From contig NZ_CP013747.1 in the NCBI RefSeq assembly GCF_001484605.1, positions 4,712,001 through 4,776,000 on the forward strand: a stretch of DNA of 64,000 bases, given 5' to 3'. The notes beneath the pieces are model-generated. The model did no database searches, had not been told where the DNA came from, and was given only the letters and a program-made list of their open reading frames with translations. The position numbers and the translations under genes are program-made. The DNA comes from Pseudarthrobacter sulfonivorans (lineage in GTDB: Bacteria > Actinomycetota > Actinomycetes > Actinomycetales > Micrococcaceae). Of the stretch, positions 5,690-16,118 are shown one piece after another. Each line of letters begins with the position of its first letter. Positions within the stretch are counted from its first letter, which is position 1.

Positions 5690-5851
5690 GGATAGAAGGC
5701 CGAGGCTGGGTGGCATGGCAGTTCTGAAAGCCGAACAGCAAGGCCGTGGTGCTCCATGGCGATTGAGTCTACTGGCACCCCTGCGTATCAGGTTTGTGCG
5801 CATTCGCTGGTCGAATTCTCAGCAACGGCATGCGTCATCGACGTCGGCGCA

Positions 5852-6433: not shown

Positions 6434-7951
6434 CTATTTGGGCCTCGTTTGCCCGACGTAGCGGGACCATGCGTCACCTGCTGCGTCGGCGTGGAGGAAG
6501 GTGACCTGGTAGCTGTAGCCGAGTGCGTCGGCGACCAAGGGTGGCGGTGTGACGGAGAGGTGCTCGTCCAGTGCCGTGTTGCGTGATCCGAGCAGTTCAA
6601 TTCCGAGGCCACGGAGCCTGAGCATGATCGTGTTCGGGTGGAGGTGCTGGCCTGCCCGGCTTCCGGGGAAGAGCCAGTGGCTTTCTGTACCTGATGCTGT
6701 TCGGAGGTTGGGGCGGTTCCGGAGGTGATGGCTGAGGAGTTCCGCGAAAGGCTGCGGGACAGGCACTGGATGCGTGCCTAGGGAGATCGTGATCGTGCCG
6801 GTGGTGTCATTGATGTTGACCGCGTCGGTGCGGAGCGCGGCCACCCGGACCAGGGGTTGGGCATAGAGGAGGAGCAATGTCCCGGCGACTCTGTAGGGCA
6901 GGGACTCGCTGGTGCCGGTGAGCAGTTCCTTTAGCCAGGCAAGGCGTTGTTCCTGCGGGATGGCAGGCCGGCCTTTAGCGGCGTAGTGCCCGATTTCGAC
7001 TCGCAAGTTCGTGCCGGTCTTTTTCGCGAAGATGAAGAAAGTCCGGATGGCTTTCCTCGTGGTCGGCCCGGTCGTGAGCCAGGTGTCCACGTCCTGCTGG
7101 GTGCAGGTGGCGGCTGTGCGGTGATGGGTCTGCCAGAGCCAGTCGAGGAACTTGATGGTTTCGGTGATTTCCTGTTTGGCGGAGTGCACCGGCCCCTGGG
7201 CCGTTTTGCCCGGGGTTGCCATGGCACGGATGCGTCGGAGGTGGTGCCATTTGGCGAAATGCTCGACGGGTTTGGCAACTTCGGCCGGCATGGGGCGCAG
7301 CTTGACGTCGATCCAGGCTTCGAAGCGGCTCAGATAGGGGTCCTGGTGGGGGAGGAGCCCGTGATGCACGAGTAGGGCCCGGAGATGGTCGGCTGCCCGT
7401 CCCGCCGTATCGCGGTGACTGTCGAGGCCTTCGTGGCTCAGGGGAGTCTGTCCGCTCGAGACGGCCGTCAGGAGCGCCTGGACCTTGGCGGAGCGTTTCC
7501 AGGTGATGATGCTTTCCGGTCGATCAGCTTGGCAGAGGACATCGACCAGGCGGTTTGCGGGTGTCCGATCCGCCGGATTCGTGAGCAGCAAGGCGGTGAG
7601 GTCGTCCCTGAGTGCGCAGCGGGCGCAGATGCCGCGGCGGTAGAACTCACCTTCGTGGTTGCAGCGGGCGCAGTGGAAGTTGTGGAGGATACCGGCGCAG
7701 GGGGCGCACCGTGGTCCTCCATCCTGTGCGGGTGGGCCGGGGAGTAGCCTGTGGTGGCCGCAGTCGGGGCAGGTGCCGTGGGTGCGGGTCGCCACGGTGA
7801 AGCAGGGACCGCAGATCTTGCCTTCCGGCCAGCTCGCCCGGGTCTTGCCGGCGTTGCGGCCGCAGCGGGCGCACTGGACGGTTCCGCTTGTGCGAGGCCG
7901 TCCGCGGACGGTTTTGCGCGGGATGAGTCCTTCCGGGAGTTCAGTGGTCAT
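6434..7951 (-). CDS. Zinc-ribbon protein with tyrosine-recombinase-like C-terminus
   Basis: The 505-residue protein has six CxxC pairs near the N-terminus (C27/C30, C47/C50, C61/C64, C82/C85, C94/C97, C109/C112), enough for three zinc ribbons. The rest follows a phage-integrase plan: a helical core-binding part, LVRVAALR (possible Arg I), LLGSRNTAL in place of the usual HxxR, ADALGYSY in place of LGH, and a terminal WSRYVG with a candidate nucleophile Tyr. The catalytic set is degenerate, so it may be an accessory subunit. Its start overlaps the Xre gene by 11 bp, making the last gene of a three-gene operon. Confidence 0.82.
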   Translation of the reverse strand: MTTELPEGLIPRKTVRGRPRTSGTVQCARCGRNAGKTRASWPEGKICGPCFTVATRTHGTCPDCGHHRLLPGPPAQDGGPRCAPCAGILHNFHCARCNHEGEFYRRGICARCALRDDLTALLLTNPADRTPANRLVDVLCQADRPESIITWKRSAKVQALLTAVSSGQTPLSHEGLDSHRDTAGRAADHLRALLVHHGLLPHQDPYLSRFEAWIDVKLRPMPAEVAKPVEHFAKWHHLRRIRAMATPGKTAQGPVHSAKQEITETIKFLDWLWQTHHRTAATCTQQDVDTWLTTGPTTRKAIRTFFIFAKKTGTNLRVEIGHYAAKGRPAIPQEQRLAWLKELLTGTSESLPYRVAGTLLLLYAQPLVRVAALRTDAVNINDTTGTITISLGTHPVPVPQPFAELLSHHLRNRPNLRTASGTESHWLFPGSRAGQHLHPNTIMLRLRGLGIELLGSRNTALDEHLSVTPPPLVADALGYSYQVTFLHADAAGDAWSRYVGQTRPK

Positions 7952-8279
7952 CGTCGATGATGCGGGCCCGGCGCGGGCGGACGGTGCGGTTCAGGTCGAC
8001 GACGTTGGGGGAGTTGCCGGTTCCGGTCTTGCGTGCCCGGACGTCGGCGGCGGTGACGGTGATGAGGTCCTCGGGGCCGCAGGAGAAGATGTCGCATATC
8101 GCAGCGATGACCTGCAGAGCGACCCGCTCGGGCTTCTGGTTGACGATGCGGTAGACCTGGGGCCGGGACAGGATGATTCCGCGCTCGGCGAGCAGGGGGA
8201 TGAGATCGGTGGTGTTGTGAAGACCGCGTGCTGCCATCAGCTCGGACAGCCGCCACGTGTATTCGACCTCGCGCTTCAT
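7941..8279 (-). CDS. Xre/Cro-type helix-turn-helix regulator
   Basis: This 112-residue protein has the Cro/C1 fold: WRLSELMAARG, then LAERGIILSRPQVYRIVNQKP (helices 2-3, recognition helix around SRPQVYRI) and ALQVIAAICDIFSCGPEDLI, the usual HTH_26-type helix 4-5 pattern. A basic tail (LNRTVRPRRARIIDDDH) follows. Its ATG overlaps the stop of the upstream tyrosine recombinase by 4 bp (ATGA) and its end overlaps the downstream gene by 11 bp, so the three are translationally coupled. It probably regulates the operon or acts as a DNA-bending recombination partner (inference). Confidence 0.88.
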   Translation of the reverse strand: MKREVEYTWRLSELMAARGLHNTTDLIPLLAERGIILSRPQVYRIVNQKPERVALQVIAAICDIFSCGPEDLITVTAADVRARKTGTGNSPNVVDLNRTVRPRRARIIDDDH

Positions 8280-9382
8280 CGCTGACCTCCCGATTTGTTG
8301 CCGAGTGCCTGGTCCATCGTGCGGTCCAGGGACGCCCGCAGCGTGGTGCTGCGGAAGTCGTCGCTGACAAATTGGTAGATGCCTGTGGTCGAGGCGTACT
8401 CGTGGCCCATTTGATATTGCACGAATCTAGGATCCCATCCGGCCTCCAACAGGTGCGTGGCATAAGAGCGCCGCAGGGAATGCAGATCCAACCCGTCCGC
8501 AGGCATCCCCAGCTCGTCCAGATACCGCCGGAGCCGCCGCAGCAGGGTGGACTCGACGATCAGGCCGCCGCGTTCGCTGGGGAAGAGATCGAGGGTGTGA
8601 AGGGTCCCTCGGCCGTTGGCTAGCCAATCCTCAAGGACGCCGGCGGTCCAGTCGAAGACCGTCAGGACGCTGCGGGGCTTGGGCGGTGATGCCTTGCGGG
8701 ACTTGCCGAACCGGACCTTGCAAACACCGAATTTCCCGAACTTGCGCGCGTGCGGGTTGGTTGCGAAATCGACGGTCTGCAGGTGCCGCAGCTCATTGAA
8801 CCGAAGGCCGTAGGAGTAAGCCATTTTGAGCATCACAGCGTCGCGGTAGGCCGCCTGCCAACCCTTCTTGCCCGAGGCCTCAATGACTTGAACCTCGTCA
8901 TCGGCGTGGTCAAAAAGCCTCTGGAGTTCCTCTTTCGTGTAGGCACGCTTGGAGGGTCGGCCTTCGAATTCCTGCACATGGGTGGCCGTGTTCCACTCAT
9001 AGAAGACCTGGGCCGGATGGGTACCAAAGCGCTCTTCGCAGACCCGGTCCCAGCCATAATCGGGATTGGCGATGTACGACGTGAAGTGACGCAGCGCGGA
9101 CTGGTGGGCCCGAAGCGTCGAGTGGCTCAAGTGCCGGATCGAGCGCAGGTCCCCGAAATACTCCTCGACATGGGCCGGCGTCCAATGCCACGGAAATTCA
9201 TTCACATGATCCACGAACCTGCGAACATACCGGATGCGCTGGTCAATGGTGTCGAACTTCAGGTTCCGAGACAGCTGCTGGTTCCGCCAGCCATCGAGCA
9301 TCTGATCGAAGGACTGCTGTTCAGGATGAAGCAGCTGGACGGAGCCCAGAAGGTGCACCCGTCCGGATCCATCGACTGCCAT
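8276..9382 (-). CDS. Tyrosine recombinase/integrase with complete catalytic set
   Basis: The 368-residue integrase has an N-terminal SAM-like core-binding domain (residues 22-135) and a catalytic domain. It shows Arg194 (SYGLRFNE), Lys227 (FGKSRK), His301 and Arg304 (HSLRRSYATH), His327 (QMGHEYA) and the nucleophile Tyr336 (STTGIY). AGGAGG lies 5 nt before the ATG, fixing the start. It is the first gene of the recombinase-Xre-zinc-ribbon operon. No adjacent tRNA or obvious attachment duplication was found. It is likely a site-specific recombinase of a mobile element rather than XerC/XerD, which have different neighbours and shorter N-termini. Confidence 0.93.
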   Translation of the reverse strand: MAVDGSGRVHLLGSVQLLHPEQQSFDQMLDGWRNQQLSRNLKFDTIDQRIRYVRRFVDHVNEFPWHWTPAHVEEYFGDLRSIRHLSHSTLRAHQSALRHFTSYIANPDYGWDRVCEERFGTHPAQVFYEWNTATHVQEFEGRPSKRAYTKEELQRLFDHADDEVQVIEASGKKGWQAAYRDAVMLKMAYSYGLRFNELRHLQTVDFATNPHARKFGKFGVCKVRFGKSRKASPPKPRSVLTVFDWTAGVLEDWLANGRGTLHTLDLFPSERGGLIVESTLLRRLRRYLDELGMPADGLDLHSLRRSYATHLLEAGWDPRFVQYQMGHEYASTTGIYQFVSDDFRSTTLRASLDRTMDQALGNKSGGQR

Positions 9383-9862
9383 TCCGCCTCCTAAACCTGC
9401 TCCAAAATCTGAATCAATGTTTCATTAAATGCATCATCTCAGCAAATCCGCAGGTCAGAGGCGTTTTTTCTGTCATTCGGCGCACTGACCCGGCCCGCCC
9501 AGTCATGACTGGGAACATCGATTGGAGTCGGATACAACCCCTGAACGCCGCGGCGCAAGGCGGGTCCAACGCGCGGCGCGGAATTCCGCGGGAGAGGGCC
9601 TGAATGATTCATCCGATGAGATACGCAGAGTACAACTTTACATAATGTAGATTATCGGCGTTATCGGAGAGCGGAGAGTGGCCTGCATTAAGCCGACGTT
9701 TAGCGGGTGACTCCGGGGCTTCCGTTGGATGTTGCCGCACGTCAGGTCCGATGGCGCCATAACCGGCGTCCCGAACTCATCCGCTCAGTAATCGGGGCTG
9801 GCCAACGCCGGCGTTGAAGCCAGCTCTAGCACCCAGCCCGACAAGCTGGCGGACAATTCGCC
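9383..9862. other. Gene-free region upstream of the recombinase operon
   Basis: No supported gene. It contains an A/T-rich patch (9411-9437), probably the promoter area of the minus-strand operon. At 9639-9649 is the 11-bp palindrome TACATAATGTA, followed by two tandem 9-bp copies, TTATCGGCG and TTATCGGAG (9652-9669). These could be regulator or recombinase sites. The last eight bases (9855-9862) are the left target duplication of the adjoining transposon. Confidence 0.6.
9855..9862. repeat. Left target-site duplication AATTCGCC
   Basis: The eight bases AATTCGCC abut the left transposon tip TGTGAATC. The identical octamer starts at 12986, right after the other tip TCACA. Nothing beyond these eight bases is duplicated, as expected of a staggered-cut insertion. 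Confidence 0.9.
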
Positions 9863-9912
9863 TGTGAATCGCAGCGGTAAATGGCGTTATTTTCGCAGCG
9901 CTAAAAGGCACG
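9863..9912 (+). repeat. Left terminal inverted repeat with two transposase-binding-like sites
   Basis: The tip is TGTGAATCGC. Two related 17-mers, 9870-9886 (CGCAGCGGTAAATGGCG) and 9894-9910 (CGCAGCGCTAAAAGGCA), lie 24 bp apart, about two helical turns, so both would face the same side of the DNA. Confidence 0.88.
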
Positions 9913-10208
9913 TTTGGTGCCGTTCAGCTGCTGCAGAACGGCATCCCCGCACTGTCAGAAGGTCGGGCGGTCTGCTCCGTCGACTGTCTTGTAATGCCAG
10001 GGATTCGAGACGCAACCGCGAAACACCCTGCGCCTCGTATGGCCCTCAATATCTGGCGATTCGTGCTGCCTCCAGTGGTGTTTTGACCTGCATCTCCTTG
10101 GCATCCAAGCGGGATGCTGCGCAAGGGCCCGGGCACTCTGCCCAGGCCCTTGGGCATGCATGGCTGCCTGACGTCAACGCTTTTGGGAGGGATGGTTAGC
10201 CCGGTCTC

Positions 10209-11282
10209 TTAGTTGAGTGGAAGTCCGAAGTGGTAGGTGTAGCCCGTCGTGTTCATGGACTTGAATGGTCCCTCGCATTTTCCCGATACCGCCGAGCAAA
10301 CCGAGATACCTGGACCGATCAGGGCCAACTCTTCAGGCCCGGCCCAGCCGTAGCGCTGCTGGAAACCGCGCCCGATCTTGACTGCTGCCCCGGTCGCAGT
10401 CTCGACAATCAGGTCATAGGCCGGGGCGTACCAAAAGTGGCCACCAGGGCTGAGGCCACTGCCGAAAGCCGTTCGGTCTCCATAGGAAGAGTGGACCGAT
10501 GACAAGACGGTTCCGTCAGCGTTCTCGAAATCGATGCGATCCTCCCTCTCCACCGCCCAAATGTCTCCACTGACATCGGCAACGGGCCGGTCGCTCAGTT
10601 GAGGAGCTTCGCCGGCGGCCCACCGCCAAACCCACACATCCCCCGTGGCCCCTCCACCGGGCGAGGTTGCGTAGTAGACAGCGGCATCATCGATTGATCC
10701 GTAAACCACACTTTTTTCGGCGGCTAGAGACGGGATCGCTGCCTGGGCGAGCACCTTCCCGGTGCTTGGACGCACGACGACGATGTCCCCGCTGTATTCG
10801 CCCCTTTGGACCCAAGAGACCAGGTCATGGCTGGGGTTACCGACTATGTCCCGAATGTCCCGAAACTCACCCCATTGACGGCCCGCGCGGGTTTCTTTGG
10901 GTTCCAGCCAGCCGAGCCTCCTGATGCTGTTTTCCCAGTCTGCCCAAACAAGCCTCGATGTCTCGGCATCCACATAGACCACACCAGTGGAAGTCGTTGT
11001 GAATGACGCCACGCGAGCCGGTGGCCATCTGTTTTCCCCGACATATAGGTTTCCCGCATCGGTGTAGAACAGGGCATCAGGGCCCCAGCCTTCGCGTGGG
11101 GCAACAGATAATTCAGATTCCGAAGTCGAAGGCACCGGAAAGGCCGAACCGGGAAGCGGATGCTCCCCATCCGGCTCCTCATAGGTGCAGCCGCCGACCC
11201 AAAACGCCAATCCCAGGCTGACAATGAGCGCCGCTACCCGCTGACGCCCTGATTTACGACACACCCCGCTGCTCACTTCCAC
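10209..11282 (-). CDS. Predicted lipoprotein with repeated beta-strand (propeller-like) body; transposon passenger
   Basis: The 357-residue product has a basic N-terminus, a hydrophobic stretch (residues 17-30) and a lipobox WVGGC with Cys32, so it should be exported and anchored to the membrane outer face. The mature part shows repeated short strands with DxxG/WxW patterns (VVYVDAETSRLVWADWENSIRRLGWL, DVWVWRWAAGEAPQL, GDIWAVEREDRIDF), consistent with a beta-propeller of unknown ligand. The start is GTG 11282 (GTG 11276 also possible). It lies wholly inside the transposon, opposite in direction to the recombination genes, so it is a cargo gene. I do not recognise a named family. Confidence 0.82.
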   Translation of the reverse strand: MEVSSGVCRKSGRQRVAALIVSLGLAFWVGGCTYEEPDGEHPLPGSAFPVPSTSESELSVAPREGWGPDALFYTDAGNLYVGENRWPPARVASFTTTSTGVVYVDAETSRLVWADWENSIRRLGWLEPKETRAGRQWGEFRDIRDIVGNPSHDLVSWVQRGEYSGDIVVVRPSTGKVLAQAAIPSLAAEKSVVYGSIDDAAVYYATSPGGGATGDVWVWRWAAGEAPQLSDRPVADVSGDIWAVEREDRIDFENADGTVLSSVHSSYGDRTAFGSGLSPGGHFWYAPAYDLIVETATGAAVKIGRGFQQRYGWAGPEELALIGPGISVCSAVSGKCEGPFKSMNTTGYTYHFGLPLN

Positions 11283-11507
11283 ACCTTCTGCTCACCTTCG
11301 AGGGGTGTCATGGAGCTCATCGATCCACCAAGCCGCTACAGGGTACTGTGAGGCCCCGCAGCCGGGTGGCCCCGAGGTGGGATGCCGTCGCCTCAAGTCT
11401 CCTCCGGCACAGAACCCGTGACAATGAAGAGTTGTACGGCGCCAAATTTGGGGCAGCTTTTCACCGCCCGCGTCTAACTCGCCCGAGAGATCTTGGCGGT
11501 AGCCTCC

Positions 11508-11673
11508 GTCTCGTAACCTAAAGCTTTTCGAGACACCGGCGTCTCACTTCGAGAGGGTCACAGGAATCTGCGCCATGCCGGGCCGTCCAGCGTCTTGTAA
11601 AGGTGTCTCACCGTGAATCGTCTCAGGAGGGTGCCGCTCGGGGGTTTCTGAGGCACAATGGCCGGGGTGAGAC
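11508..11673. promoter_or_regulatory. res-like region upstream of the serine resolvase
   Basis: GTCTC/GAGAC half sites recur as dyads: GTCTCG (11508-11513) with CGAGAC (11529-11534), GTCTCACTTCGAGAG (11541-11555), GTGTCTCACC (11603-11612), CGTCTCAGG (11619-11627) and GGTGAGAC at the start of the resolvase gene (11666-11673). Resolvase genes of this kind usually lie next to their own recombination site, which also contains the promoter. The half sites match those of the orphan array at 3536-3752. Confidence 0.72.
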
Positions 11674-12248
11674 ATCTCGGGTATACGCGCGTCAGTACCT
11701 CGGGCCAGGATGCGAAGTTGCAACTCGATGCACTGGTCGATGCCGGGGTGCAGAAGCGTGACGTGTTCGCCGACGTCACCTCCGGAAGTAAGGCCGCTAT
11801 TGAGCGGCCCGGGATGAAGAAGCTCCTTGCATATGTGGAGCCGGGCGATACCGTCGTGGTTTGGCGGGTGGATAGGCTCGGGCGATCCTTGATTGATGTT
11901 TTGAACACGGTGAACCTGCTGCGGGATCGCGGCGTGTACCTGAGGTCTGTCTCGGACGGAATTGATCCCACAACAACGTCGGGCCGCCTGATGCTGAATA
12001 TGCTCGCGACGCTGGCTGAGTACGAACGGGAGCTGATCGTCGAACGCGTGAACGCTGGCATCGCCGCGGCGCGCCAGGGCGGCACCCGCTTTGGCCGGCC
12101 CATGTCCGATCCGCTGGTCGTCGCCGACAAGCTCAAGATCGCCCAGGACGCTCGCGCGAAGGGACGCACCGCTGAGGACGCGGCTCGTTTGGTGGGCTGG
12201 AGCCGCGCAACGCTTTACCGCCATCAACAGGCGGCTTCCCGGTTATGA
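11658..12248 (+). CDS. tnpR: Serine recombinase, Tn3-resolvase/invertase type
   Basis: The 196-residue resolvase begins MAGVRHLGYTRVSTSGQDAKLQ with catalytic Ser13 in the YTRVS motif. DVTSGSKAAIERPGMKKLL, VVWRVDRLGRS (conserved Arg-Asp-Arg) and the long helix around MLATLAEYERELIVERVNAG follow. It ends in a small helix-turn-helix (GRTAEDAARLVGWSRATLYRHQ). The normal length suggests it is functional. It would resolve cointegrates at the adjacent res-like region. The GTG at 11667 is an alternative start that gives the shorter form typical of relatives. Its TGA overlaps the transposase ATG (ATGA), so the two are coupled. Confidence 0.94.
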   Translation: MAGVRHLGYTRVSTSGQDAKLQLDALVDAGVQKRDVFADVTSGSKAAIERPGMKKLLAYVEPGDTVVVWRVDRLGRSLIDVLNTVNLLRDRGVYLRSVSDGIDPTTTSGRLMLNMLATLAEYERELIVERVNAGIAAARQGGTRFGRPMSDPLVVADKLKIAQDARAKGRTAEDAARLVGWSRATLYRHQQAASRL

Positions 12249-12934
12249 AGCATGGGCTGTCGGCCGAAGACCGCGCGTCGCTGCTCCGGCAGCACCTCGA
12301 CGACGGAGTTCCCCTTGCCAGGATCTCCAGTCAGGCCGGCGTCCCCCTCCGCACGCTACAGCGGTGGACGGCTGTGCTCCGCGCCGACGGCTCGGTTAGG
12401 GCACTGGGCCGCCGGCCACGCTCGGACCGAGGCAGCCATTCGGTCCCGCCTGAGATCGTTGGCGCGATCGAAGGCCTCGCGCTTCGCCGCCCGGCACCAA
12501 CCATCGCGTTCATCCATCGACGGATTAGTGCCGTCGCGCTCGACCGCGGCATGCCTGCCCCCGGCTACTCGACGGTCCGGGCGGTCGTTGCCGCCATCGA
12601 TCCTGGGCTGCGAACCCTGGCGCTCGAAGGCGACGCCGCGTACCGGGACAGATTCGAGCTGGTCTATCGGCGCACCGCCAGGCGCGCGAACGAGCAGTGG
12701 CAATGCGACCACACCGAGCTGGACATCGAGATCGTCGACACCGCCGGCGCCTCCGCCCGCCCATGGCTGACCGTCGTACTCGATGACTACTCCCGCGCCA
12801 TAGCCGGCTACACCGTCTTCACCGGGGCGCCGACCGCGCTGCAGACAGCCTTGGCCCTTCATCAGGCCGTGCAGCGCAAAAATCACCCGGCTTGGCCCGT
12901 CATGGGTCTGCCCGATGTTCTCTACAGCGACTGA
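12245..12934 (+). pseudogene. Mu/TniA-type DDE transposase, truncated after the second catalytic Asp
   Basis: The N-terminus has helix-turn-helix units (LARISSQAGVPLRTLQRWTAVLRADG) for end binding. The RNase-H-fold core opens at RANEQWQCDHTELDIEIVD, with the first catalytic Asp near residue 155, then PWLTVVLDDYSRAIAGY. The frame stops right after DVLYSD, so Asp229, the second catalytic residue, is the last amino acid. The catalytic Glu and all C-terminal domains, about half of a usual 450-500 residue protein, are missing. The right transposon sites begin four bases after the stop, so an internal deletion joined the gene to the right end. It should be inactive as a transposase but may still bind ends. 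Confidence 0.88.
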
Positions 12935-12935
12935 C

Positions 12936-12985
12936 CGCGCCAAATATCGCCGCGAAAAACACGCCAAATAGCGCAGAGAATCACA
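12936..12985 (-). repeat. Right terminal inverted repeat with two transposase-binding-like sites
   Basis: Read from the outside on the minus strand it begins TGTGATTCTC. The two 17-bp sites (12938-12954 and 12962-12978) share the plus-strand core CGCCAAATAnCGC and are 24 bp apart, mirroring the left end exactly in spacing. Confidence 0.88.
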
Positions 12986-12993
12986 AATTCGCC
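12986..12993. repeat. Right target-site duplication AATTCGCC
   Basis: Identical to 9855-9862. The pre-insertion sequence can be rebuilt by joining 9862 to 12994. The next gene, the type III polyketide synthase, starts only 83 bp further on. Confidence 0.9.
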
Positions 12994-13075: not shown

Positions 13076-14278
13076 GTGCTCGCCAAGAATGAACCAATGA
13101 CGGTCTACGTGCGTTCACTCGAAACTGCTGTTCCGCCCACCGTGCTGGTTCAGACCGAAGCCCGGGACGTTTTTGCAGCTCAGCCTGGCCTGACCAGGCT
13201 GGGCTCGCGACTGGTGAGTACTTGCTTCGATTCAGCCGCCATCGATACGCGCCATACCGCCGTCCAAGAAATGACCATGGCGTTCCGTTCGGACGATCCG
13301 CAGTTCTTTGATCCATCTACGGGCCTGCTCCTGAACCCCACCACCAAGGTGCGCAACGAGTTCTTCGCACGGGAGGTCACCAAACTTTTCATCGAGTCCG
13401 CCCGGGCTGCCGTGAACGCCTGCCCGGATCTGTCCTTGCTTGACATAACCCACGTCATTACCGTCTCCTGCACAGGATTCTTCAACCCCGGTCCTGACTA
13501 TAAGATCGTCCGTGCGTTGGGGTTGGACCCTGCCGTCCAGCGTTATCACCTCGGATTCATGGGCTGCTATGCCGCCTTTCCGGCGCTGCGGGCCGCCAAG
13601 TCGTTCTGCGAAGCAGATCCGCAGGCCGTTGTCCTGGTGGTCTGTGCCGAGCTGTGCTCCCTGCACGTGCGGACTTCGAACGATCCCGACACCATCATGG
13701 GTTCGGCGCTGTTCGCCGACGGCGCGGCGGCAGCCATCATTACGGCCCGGAACGATCCGGACGCGCCTGCGCTGATGCAACTGGACCACTTCGAAACCGT
13801 CCTTACGCCGGTGGGCGAGGAATCCATGGCCTGGAACATCGGCGACCATGGCTTCGAAATGGTGCTGGGCAACTACGTCCCCCACATCATCGACGATCAC
13901 ATCATCGGCGCCCTCGCGCCGCTGCTGGCCCGGGATCCCTCGCTGCGCGGACTCCCCTACCGGGACATCCGCCATTGGGCCATCCATCCCGGCGGCCGGA
14001 GCATCCTTGACAAGGTCCAGACGCGCCTTGAACTCACCGACGAGCAACTCGTTCCGGCACGGGATACGTTGCGGGACTACGGCAACATGAGCAGTGCCAC
14101 CGTGCTGTTTGTCCTCAGGCACATCCTGGAGCAGCCGCCGGTGGAGGGTGAGGAACGCATCTGCTCCATGGCGTTCGGCCCCGGACTCACGGTGGAGACC
14201 GGGCTCTTCACGAAACTCCGCCAGGCAGCCACCGGGAAACGGGCGGTGCAGCCAGAGGCGGCCTCGTCGCTGGTCTGA
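13076..14278 (+). CDS. Type III polyketide synthase (chalcone/stilbene synthase family)
   Basis: This homodimeric ketosynthase extends an acyl-CoA starter with malonyl-CoA and cyclises it to a resorcinol, pyrone or similar ring. The full catalytic triad is present: Cys164 (GFMGCYAAFPAL), His304 (HWAIHPGG) and Asn337 (YGNMSSATVLFVL). The signature GPGLTVETGL is near the C-terminus. The length is normal for the family. GTG 13076 lies 5 nt after TCTAAT, which fits a leaderless start; ATG 13097 is the alternative. It heads a tight three-gene operon with a methyltransferase and an FAD monooxygenase. An alkylresorcinol-type product is the best guess; the starter unit cannot be read from sequence. 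Confidence 0.93.
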   Translation: MLAKNEPMTVYVRSLETAVPPTVLVQTEARDVFAAQPGLTRLGSRLVSTCFDSAAIDTRHTAVQEMTMAFRSDDPQFFDPSTGLLLNPTTKVRNEFFAREVTKLFIESARAAVNACPDLSLLDITHVITVSCTGFFNPGPDYKIVRALGLDPAVQRYHLGFMGCYAAFPALRAAKSFCEADPQAVVLVVCAELCSLHVRTSNDPDTIMGSALFADGAAAAIITARNDPDAPALMQLDHFETVLTPVGEESMAWNIGDHGFEMVLGNYVPHIIDDHIIGALAPLLARDPSLRGLPYRDIRHWAIHPGGRSILDKVQTRLELTDEQLVPARDTLRDYGNMSSATVLFVLRHILEQPPVEGEERICSMAFGPGLTVETGLFTKLRQAATGKRAVQPEAASSLV

Positions 14279-14281
14279 CCT

Positions 14282-14983
14282 GTGTCCCTGATGCGGCAAA
14301 GGGCTGCGGACGCAGTGGAAATGATGGACCTGCCGGACTGTGATCCCACCAAACTGGAGCTCACGTACCGGCAATTCGGACTGGTGAACCGGCTCTTCTC
14401 CGGCTGGCGGCAGCTGTACTGCCGCGAGCTTCGCCCTCTGCTCTCCCACGACTCTGAAACCACGCTCCTCGACATAGGATGCGGCGGCGGGGACCTGGCA
14501 CGCCAGCTCGCCCTCTGGTCCGCCCGGGACAAACTGCTGCTCGAGGTCACCGGCATTGACCCGGACGCCAGGGCATACAGCTACTCGTTACGCCGCCCCC
14601 ACCACGCCTCAGTCCGGTTCCGCCAGGCGGACAGTGCCGACATGGTCCGCGAAGGTCGCCGGTTCGACGTCGTCATCTCGAACCACGTCATCCACCACCT
14701 CCAACCAGCGGACCTGGCTCAGCTCCTGGCAGATTCGCAAGCCCTGGCGCGCCGGATTTCCCTGCACAACGACCTCCGCCGGAACATCGCAGCCTACGCA
14801 CTTTTCTCCCTGGCGGCCCTCCCCTTCCGCGGCTCGTTCATCCGTGCGGACGGCCTGACCTCGATCAGGCGCAGCTACACCCCGGCGGAACTCACCGCCG
14901 CCGCTCCCCCCGGCTGGCAGGTGGCGCGCCACTCCCCTTTCCATCAGGTCCTCATGCACGGTCCGGACCATCCCGATGGCTGA
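14282..14983 (+). CDS. Class I SAM-dependent methyltransferase of the type III PKS operon
   Basis: The 233-residue protein has motif I TTLLDIGCGGGDLARQLA, the acidic end of strand 2 (TGIDPDARAY), motif II-like RFDVVISNHVIHHLQP and a methyltransferase fold of the Methyltransf_25 kind. The N-terminal LELTYRQFGLVNRLFSGWRQLY is characteristic of methyltransferases paired with actinobacterial type III PKSs. It starts 3 nt after the PKS stop (GTG 14282; ATG 14291 possible) and overlaps the next gene by 8 bp, so it is translationally coupled. The likely role is O- or C-methylation of the phenolic product (inference from context). Confidence 0.9.
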   Translation: MSLMRQRAADAVEMMDLPDCDPTKLELTYRQFGLVNRLFSGWRQLYCRELRPLLSHDSETTLLDIGCGGGDLARQLALWSARDKLLLEVTGIDPDARAYSYSLRRPHHASVRFRQADSADMVREGRRFDVVISNHVIHHLQPADLAQLLADSQALARRISLHNDLRRNIAAYALFSLAALPFRGSFIRADGLTSIRRSYTPAELTAAAPPGWQVARHSPFHQVLMHGPDHPDG

Positions 14984-16118
14984 CGTGGTGATCGTCGGCG
15001 GCGGACCCGTGGGTCTGTATCTCGCCGCCCTGCTGCTTCAGGAAGGCGTCGCGGTCCAGGTCCTTGAACAGCGGCTCCACCGGGAACACCACTCGCGAGC
15101 CATCGGCATCCATCCCCCCGCCCTCGCGGCGCTGAACAGGGCATCGGTGGCCAGCGCCATGGTTGATGCCGGCGTGCAGATCCGCGGCGGCATTGCAGTC
15201 AGCGGCGCGAAGACCGTAGGGTCAATGTCTTTCGCGTCGGTCTCGGAGCGCTTCCCGTTTGTCCTGTCGCTCGCCCAGGTCACAACGGAATCCCTGCTGG
15301 AGCGGCGTGTAGACGAACTCGACGGTGCGGCGCTCGTCAGGGGCGCCAGGGTGACGGAAATAGCGGACGACGGCGGACTGGTCACCGTCCGTGCTGCCGC
15401 CACCAAGACAGGGGGTGCCGGCACCCGGATCACCTCACGGTTTTTGGTCGCCGCCGACGGCTCTCGGTCCCTGATGCGCAGCCTGCTGGGCATCCCGGCC
15501 ACGTCCCGAACCTATCCCGACCATTATGTGATGGGTGATTTCGAAGGTACCGGCAAAAACCTGAACGAAGCCGTCCTGTACCTCGAAGCCGAAGGGATAG
15601 TGGAATCCTTTCCGCTGCCGGGCGGTCTCCGCCGCTGGGTAGTGAGGGTTCCCCGGCCCGAACCGGTCCCGGACGCCGTCGAACTGGCACGGTTGGTCCA
15701 CCACCGCACGGGGATCCGGCCGGACCCGGCCACCAACACCATGCTCAGTAGCTTCAGCCCGCGCTCCACGGTGGCGTGCCGATCAGTCTCGGGGCGGGCC
15801 GTCCTGATCGGTGATGCTGCCCATGAAATAAGCCCCATCGGCGGCCAAGGCATGAACCTTGGCTGGCTGGACGCGGCGGAACTCGCGCCGATCATCTGTG
15901 ATGCCCTGGCGGGGAAACCGGTTGGCCAGCGCCTGCACGCCTATTCCGCCCGGCGTCGTAAGGCCGCGTCGGTGGCACGATGGCAGTCCGAAGTGAATAT
16001 GACGCTGGGGCGCCCGCTGGGGCGGCCGCTCGTGGCCTTGAGGAACCGGGCAGTCAGCGCCGTGTCCGGCTTTCCGGCGGCCAACAGGCTGGTGGCCCGC
16101 CGGTTTACCATGCAGTAA
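14976..16118 (+). CDS. FAD-dependent aromatic monooxygenase (PHBH fold)
   Basis: A group A flavoprotein hydroxylase of 380 residues. It has VVIVGGGPVGLYLAALL (dinucleotide fold, residues 5-21), FLVAADGSRSLMR (DG motif) and GRAVLIGDAAHEISPIGGQGMNLG (GD motif contacting the FAD ribityl chain). There is no membrane helix. Such enzymes use NAD(P)H and O2 to hydroxylate activated rings. With the upstream PKS and methyltransferase, the parsimonious pathway is polyketide phenol, then methyl ether, then hydroxylated ring that autoxidises to a quinone. Its ATG overlaps the methyltransferase stop by 8 bp. Confidence 0.92.
   Translation: MADVVIVGGGPVGLYLAALLLQEGVAVQVLEQRLHREHHSRAIGIHPPALAALNRASVASAMVDAGVQIRGGIAVSGAKTVGSMSFASVSERFPFVLSLAQVTTESLLERRVDELDGAALVRGARVTEIADDGGLVTVRAAATKTGGAGTRITSRFLVAADGSRSLMRSLLGIPATSRTYPDHYVMGDFEGTGKNLNEAVLYLEAEGIVESFPLPGGLRRWVVRVPRPEPVPDAVELARLVHHRTGIRPDPATNTMLSSFSPRSTVACRSVSGRAVLIGDAAHEISPIGGQGMNLGWLDAAELAPIICDALAGKPVGQRLHAYSARRRKAASVARWQSEVNMTLGRPLGRPLVALRNRAVSAVSGFPAANRLVARRFTMQ

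Follow-up and report, generated by a model that had tools for sequence, protein, structure and literature searches.

A probable deletion derivative of a Tn552-like transposon in Pseudarthrobacter sulfonivorans and the target duplications of its actinobacterial relatives

With regard to the 64,000-nucleotide stretch of Pseudarthrobacter sulfonivorans analysed here (contig NZ_CP013747.1, positions 4,712,001 to 4,776,000; hereafter the window, whose own numbering is used below), the feature of interest is a 3123-bp transposon at positions 9863-12985. This element is very probably (roughly 93%, in our estimate) a Tn552-like transposon in an internally deleted and non-autonomous form. As its ATPase gene is absent through deletion, we file it as a deletion derivative and not as a complete Tn552-like member. 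Taken by itself, the copy in the window is an ordinary, dead-end derivative, and the part worth following is the loose 8-9-bp stagger of its relatives. These probably form an actinobacterial lineage of the Mu/Tn7/TniA superfamily with a longer, loose target stagger, for which 8 or 9 bp are preferred and 6-9 bp are found overall. No paper was recognised, judging from titles and the openings of abstracts, as describing this lineage or as dealing with Tn552-type transposons in Arthrobacter.

Ends and insertion site of the element

The octamer AATTCGCC, read directly, occurs on both sides of the element, whose tips are TGTGAATC on the left and GAATCACA on the right. When the right end is reverse-complemented, it matches the left end at 18 of 24 and at 36 of 50 bases. 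Among 3,000,000 random pairs of 50-mers from the window, 30 matches or more were observed 11 times, with a maximum of 33, and 36 never. Each end comprises two 17-bp sites, at 9870-9886 and 9894-9910 on the left and at 12978-12962 and 12954-12938 on the right; 7 bp precede each site, and the period is 24 bp. These paired 24-bp units are probably the binding sites of the transposase. TGT...ACA tips with repeated sites are a Tn552-like trait, and are present in the window element. A 24-bp motif derived from the element ends gave 10 matches across the host genome with up to three mismatches, three of them inside the element, versus none for the reversed control.

The right flank is matched in 118 of the 121 genomes of the genus (host included), and 11 right-flank loci were compared. 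One of them, from a congener (L108), runs unbroken across the joined flanks, with 225 of 239 positions identical and a single AATTCGCC. L110 matches from the duplication rightwards only, and the remaining compared loci match only further right. On this alignment, the element is shown to have inserted into a site that is still empty in the congener. The left tip is also fixed independently by a locus of genome G455 (L168), in which the left part of the element is matched at 93% from exactly position 9863 onwards; this copy has no transposase and no partner right end within 19.9 kb. An earlier note, made from the letters of the window, had described a transposon with ends exact to the base, two 17-bp sites per end and an exact 8-bp duplication, and had suggested looking for the empty site in a related strain. 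The direct reading, the match between the ends, the common period and the congener with its single octamer agree with that description.

Fuller relatives and the internal deletion

Four related loci (L022-L025) exhibit a resolvase and a transposase 86-88% identical to those of the window and a right end that is 80-91% identical, and have about 1.7 kb of transposase and ATPase sequence between the point of codon 229 and the right end. In Arthrobacter oryzae (L022), one open frame of 483 amino acids encodes the transposase, followed by an AAA ATPase and then by a window-like right end, and the same gene order is observed in L023, L024 and L025, with interrupted transposase frames. The L022 transposase matches Mu-transpos_C (E 3.1e-18) and rve (E 2.5e-10), and its ATPase matches AAA_22 (E 1.2e-17). 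The best solved relatives of this transposase are the TnsB chains (E 1.4e-46) of Tn7 and of the CRISPR-associated transposons (CAST; TnsB, TnsC), which have a 5-bp duplication. The ends of Tn7/CAST are described as arrays of sites of about 20 bp in passages of PMC8649781.

The 1.7 kb comprising the rest of the transposase and the ATPase is missing from the window. The window transposase, which shares 207 of its 229 residues with the L022 protein, stops at the second acidic motif; the third (E) motif is missing, as is the Mu C-terminal domain. Only the first half of the transposase is thus kept, and its rve match scores below the cut-off. The junction shares 0-1 bp, by comparison with L022-L025, and is present in one of 206 genomes of the genus, namely the host itself. 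Comparison with these relatives shows a window copy that is internally deleted and that has lost the second half of its transposase together with the ATPase. The earlier note rightly reported that the element has no ATPase gene, and took this for part of an unnamed architecture. As a design, this absence does not stand: L022, with its open transposase frame and ATPase, makes it a deletion, and the stop codon of the window frame is the ATPase's own. Nor is the architecture unnamed, the element being very probably a deleted copy of a known kind of transposon. The note was right to compare it with TniA/Tn552 relatives, and L022 is the full-length relative with complete transposase and ATPase for which it proposed to search.

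The host genome contains no other transposase match at E 0.001 and, for the ATPase, a 27-residue match only (67%, E 1.4e-4, to the L022 protein; host C1:4673780-4673860, about 48 kb from the window element), which is possibly a remnant. The window copy therefore looks stranded.

Transposase identity is about 41-42% over 90-92% to plasmid transposases of Staphylococcus aureus and Enterococcus faecium, which we take to be of the Tn552 type (their records read only Mu transposase C-terminal domain protein). To an Escherichia coli plasmid transposase adjoining a TniB gene, it is about 29% over 65%. When distant matches are included, the protein is matched in 113 of 395 genomes of the host's bacterial family. 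In a tree of 42 rows made by a quick method, the window groups with L025 and L022 with full support, in a 16-row clade of host-family elements and a Rhodococcus plasmid. Ten loci with a transposase reading below 350 amino acids were left out of the tree input, 84 rows were kept and 42 were used; the lengths given on the tree for L075, L100, L101 and L131 come from tip pairs found with the repeat in view.

The gene set of Tn552 (p480, p271 and bin, which we take to be the transposase, ATPase and resolvase) matches that of the window's relatives, with about 41% transposase identity and multi-site ends in both. A further Tn552-like trait present in the window is the serine resolvase with its conserved upstream region, the putative res; the resolvase gene had been named in the earlier note, and its PF00239 match (Table 1) confirms it. 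According to passages of PMC3276174, Tn552 inserts in the sin res site, copies without transposition genes (dTn552) exist, and Bin-mediated deletion is given as the origin of the one on pI258. In contrast, the window exhibits a junction between the transposase and the ATPase stop, and its passenger also differs. A resolvase-made deletion of the kind proposed for dTn552 was rejected for the window, as the junction lies at codon 229 and the ATPase stop and not at res. A 'Tn552-II' with a 7-bp site, found in a passage of PMC12486829, was set aside as a comparison, as its tnpABC genes resemble those of Tn554.

A complete element would have ends made up of paired 24-bp units and, enclosed by them, a DDE transposase of the TnsB/TniA type, an AAA ATPase, and a serine resolvase together with its res. 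Going by what is known of the family, the ATPase would pick or prepare the target, and the transposase would join the 3' ends to staggered target phosphates, with cuts 8 bp apart here. The copies would form a cointegrate, which the resolvase would separate at res. Without the second half of its transposase and the ATPase, the window copy could probably move only if a related element supplied both, and no gene for supplying them was found in the host genome.

Target duplications, target sites and rival readings

Duplication lengths were surveyed at 91 loci with a transposase match: 15 loci, 74 genome stretches (20, 20, 20 and 14), one plasmid stretch and the window. The 74 stretches were drawn from the 113 matching genomes and represent part of those matches only. 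As L075/L129 and L076/L124 are overlapping readings of the same places, 89 places are represented; all four stretches are without a duplication in this survey. The tip pair of a locus was the best TGTG...[CT]ACA pair by end likeness alone (at least 15/24 and at least 29/50), the flanks being unused.

Such a pair was obtained at 58 of the 91 loci, and in 29 of these 58 a repeat of at least 6 bp lies exactly at the tips (9 bp in 14 pairs, 8 bp in 12, 7 bp in two and 6 bp in one); duplications of 4 or 5 bp were observed in none of the 58. When left flanks were paired with foreign right flanks as a control, repeats of at least 6 bp occurred in 2 of 3306 pairings, both of 8 bp and both, on our reading, from L066/L067, whose target sequence is shared. 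A poorly matching tip pair of L119 has a 12-bp repeat, which was left uncounted, and the copies in L092/L097/L099 (one element) and in L066/L067/L080 (one target) are not independent. Lengths of 8 or 9 bp account for 26 of the 29 duplicated pairs, so that the 8-bp duplication of the window element is typical of its lineage. The earlier note had placed an 8-bp duplication outside the TniA/Tn552 groups, which is contradicted by this count and by the 6 and 10 bp in print for Tn552.

Passages of PMC3276174 state 6 bp for Tn552 and also mention 10-bp repeats at insertions in the sin res site, whereas the window has 8 bp and its relatives mostly 8-9 bp, with 6 bp in one of the 29 duplicated pairs. 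In view of these 10-bp repeats, 6 bp may not define the group, and the window element is not filed as Tn552 proper. Passages of PMC9769919, PMC6496109 and PMC10763498 give no duplication length for Tn552; according to a passage of PMC8705779, Mu has 5 bp and phage B3 has 6 bp.

In L092, L097 and L099, with sizes of 5754-5760 and tree branches of 0-0.01, the duplications are 8, 8 and 9 bp long, and those in L100 and L101, with identical transposases, have 8 and 7 bp (found with the repeat in view). As near-identical copies in different genomes differ in length, a single enzyme seems to produce staggers of different lengths. The lineage thus offers a natural stagger series (6-9 bp) with exact ends, frequent in the host's family and often adjoining other resolvases, which opens what sets the TnsB-type strand-transfer stagger to direct comparison.

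All 28 duplicated relatives contain ATPase and resolvase matches, neither of which was used as a selection criterion. With the window resolvase as query (E 1e-6), a foreign serine resolvase was found to start at most 200 bp from one end in 13 of the 29 duplicated elements and at 314 bp in a 14th, and all 14 read away from their element. Two of the 13 are limited matches (L097, partial, from residue 49; L122, 81 residues), and the common target of L066, L067 and L080 means that the 13 are not all independent. The flanks more than 400 bp from the elements (294 kb in total) contain no resolvase at E 1e-6. The lineage probably targets the res of other resolvases, as Tn552 and Tn5053 do.

Three other explanations were weighed against a deletion derivative. 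The window element might be a new, compact autonomous transposon, in which the 229-residue transposase and the resolvase suffice without an ATPase; its frame has a stop, and its ends and duplication are intact. This is hardly credible, as the frame breaks off at the second acidic motif, without what follows in L022, its stop codon is that of the ATPase, the junction is confined to a single genome of 206, and an ATPase is matched in every duplicated relative. Membership of the IS481/IS3-like elements, with a resolvase as an accidental neighbour, has a practically negligible probability: the NCBIfam IS481 match of the truncated protein (E 8.4e-10) reaches 38.6 bits against a cut-off of 224, and the full-length relative has Mu-transpos_C and an adjoining ATPase.

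The Tn5053/Tn402 elements have the genes tniA, tniB, tniQ and tniR, of which tniQ would distinguish them from the lineage, and their hunting of res is reportedly the subject of a 1999 paper's title. They share with the lineage a protein superfamily, with a TniA/TnsB-type transposase, an ATPase and a resolvase, as well as the probable res targeting in the relatives. Nevertheless, it is very unlikely that the window element is a tniABQR element. Identity to their transposases is 29-31% (about 29% in the case given above), over part of the protein only. In L022, the ATPase stop lies at 8359-8361 and the right tip at 8412, about 50 bp further, which leaves no room for tniQ there; the other relatives were not searched for this gene. 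Moreover, 4-5-bp duplications occur in none of the 58 tip pairs, in contrast to the 5 bp given for a Tn402-type integron in a passage of PMC8373256.

Several observations weigh against a deleted Tn552-like element from a lineage with a long stagger. The thresholds of tip likeness were fixed after earlier runs in which repeats had been viewed, and 29 of the 58 tip pairs are without a duplication of at least 6 bp (28 have none, one has 3 bp); in these, wrong partner tips, nested ends and rearrangement are not separable. The non-actinobacterial pairs L026, L027 and L029 are among those without a duplication, and the L022 and L024 stretches do not include both tips (that of L022 covers 6 kb upstream, and no left tip was found in it), so that L022, the closest relative with an open transposase frame, gives no duplication length. 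The tree puts the Tn552-type rows outside the actinobacterial clade, on long branches beside Dyadobacter and with a long-branch warning, and their placement is unsure. The window element is not beside a resolvase, and no movement of it has been observed.

Other features of the element and of the host

Table 1 Features of the window element (window coordinates)
Feature	Position	Strand	Basis or remark
Left 8-bp target duplication copy, AATTCGCC	9855..9862	.	Direct reading; once only in the L108 empty site
Left end, with tip TGTGAATC and its pair of 17-bp sites	9863..9912	+	Direct reading; L168 match starts at 9863
Passenger gene, 357 amino acids	10209..11282	-	Secreted-lipoprotein-like by eye from its start
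Module upstream of the passenger, putative promoter/leader	11297..11518	-	Further copies in the genus
Probable res region, repeated GAGAC/GTCTC motifs	11520..11657	+	Conserved in four relatives (alignment)
Serine resolvase, 196 amino acids	11658..12248	+	PF00239, E 3.5e-43
Truncated DDE transposase, 229 amino acids	12245..12934	+	Helix-turn-helix part and first two acidic motifs kept
Deletion junction, at which transposase codon 229 meets the lost ATPase's stop codon	12931..12932	+	Comparison with relatives
Right end, with tip TGTGATTC (reverse strand) and its pair of 17-bp sites	12938..12985	-	Sequence reading
Right 8-bp target duplication copy	12986..12993	.	Direct reading; L108 empty site

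The passenger gene has no match in Pfam or NCBIfam, and homologues were observed in 5 of the 120 other congeners searched, three at 88-90% and two at 61-77%. The module of about 220 bp upstream of it is matched in 27 of the 121 genomes of the genus (host included), and its second copy in the host (90-92%) adjoins a different lipoprotein-like gene. At nine places where both pieces occur next to each other, the equivalents of window positions 11439 and 11440 are separated by some 65-71 bp; the copies of the window, G353 and G439 are continuous across this point.

Within the probable res region, no inverted repeat of at least 10 bp is found inside 11500-11665, and one inverted pair (11601-11612 and 11666-11677) extends into the resolvase gene. 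The Hiyo4 element (L025) adjoins another resolvase. About 900 bp outside its left end, near L025:2480-2574 and 3455, 96 bp of the window res region recur in inverted orientation at 85%.

A second element of 1793 bp is observed in the host at C1:3113618-3115410 (L015:8619-10411), with a window-type tip and an 8-bp repeat, CTCACTTT, which was found with the repeat in view. No transposase frame was seen in this element, which contains a gene judged by eye to be arginase-like; the right end is nearly palindromic (TGTGAATCGCAGCG...CAGCGATTCACA), and the element sits in a palindromic host repeat. Four further end-like sequences lie at C1:3231002, 1464752, 3514272 (-) and 389996 (-), with no partner tip within about 20 kb; those at 3231002, 1464752 and 3514272 resemble one another over about 65 bp, as far as YCCGYTAGCCGA.

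To the left of the insertion, window positions 6434-9382 comprise three overlapping or adjoining reverse-strand genes, for a tyrosine recombinase, a Cro/C1-type helix-turn-helix protein and a 505-amino-acid protein without a Pfam match. To the right, positions 13076-16118 comprise a type III polyketide synthase gene (chalcone/stilbene synthase family), followed by methyltransferase-like and monooxygenase-like frames (named by eye). The DNA of the polyketide synthase gene is matched in 118 of the 121 genomes of the genus.

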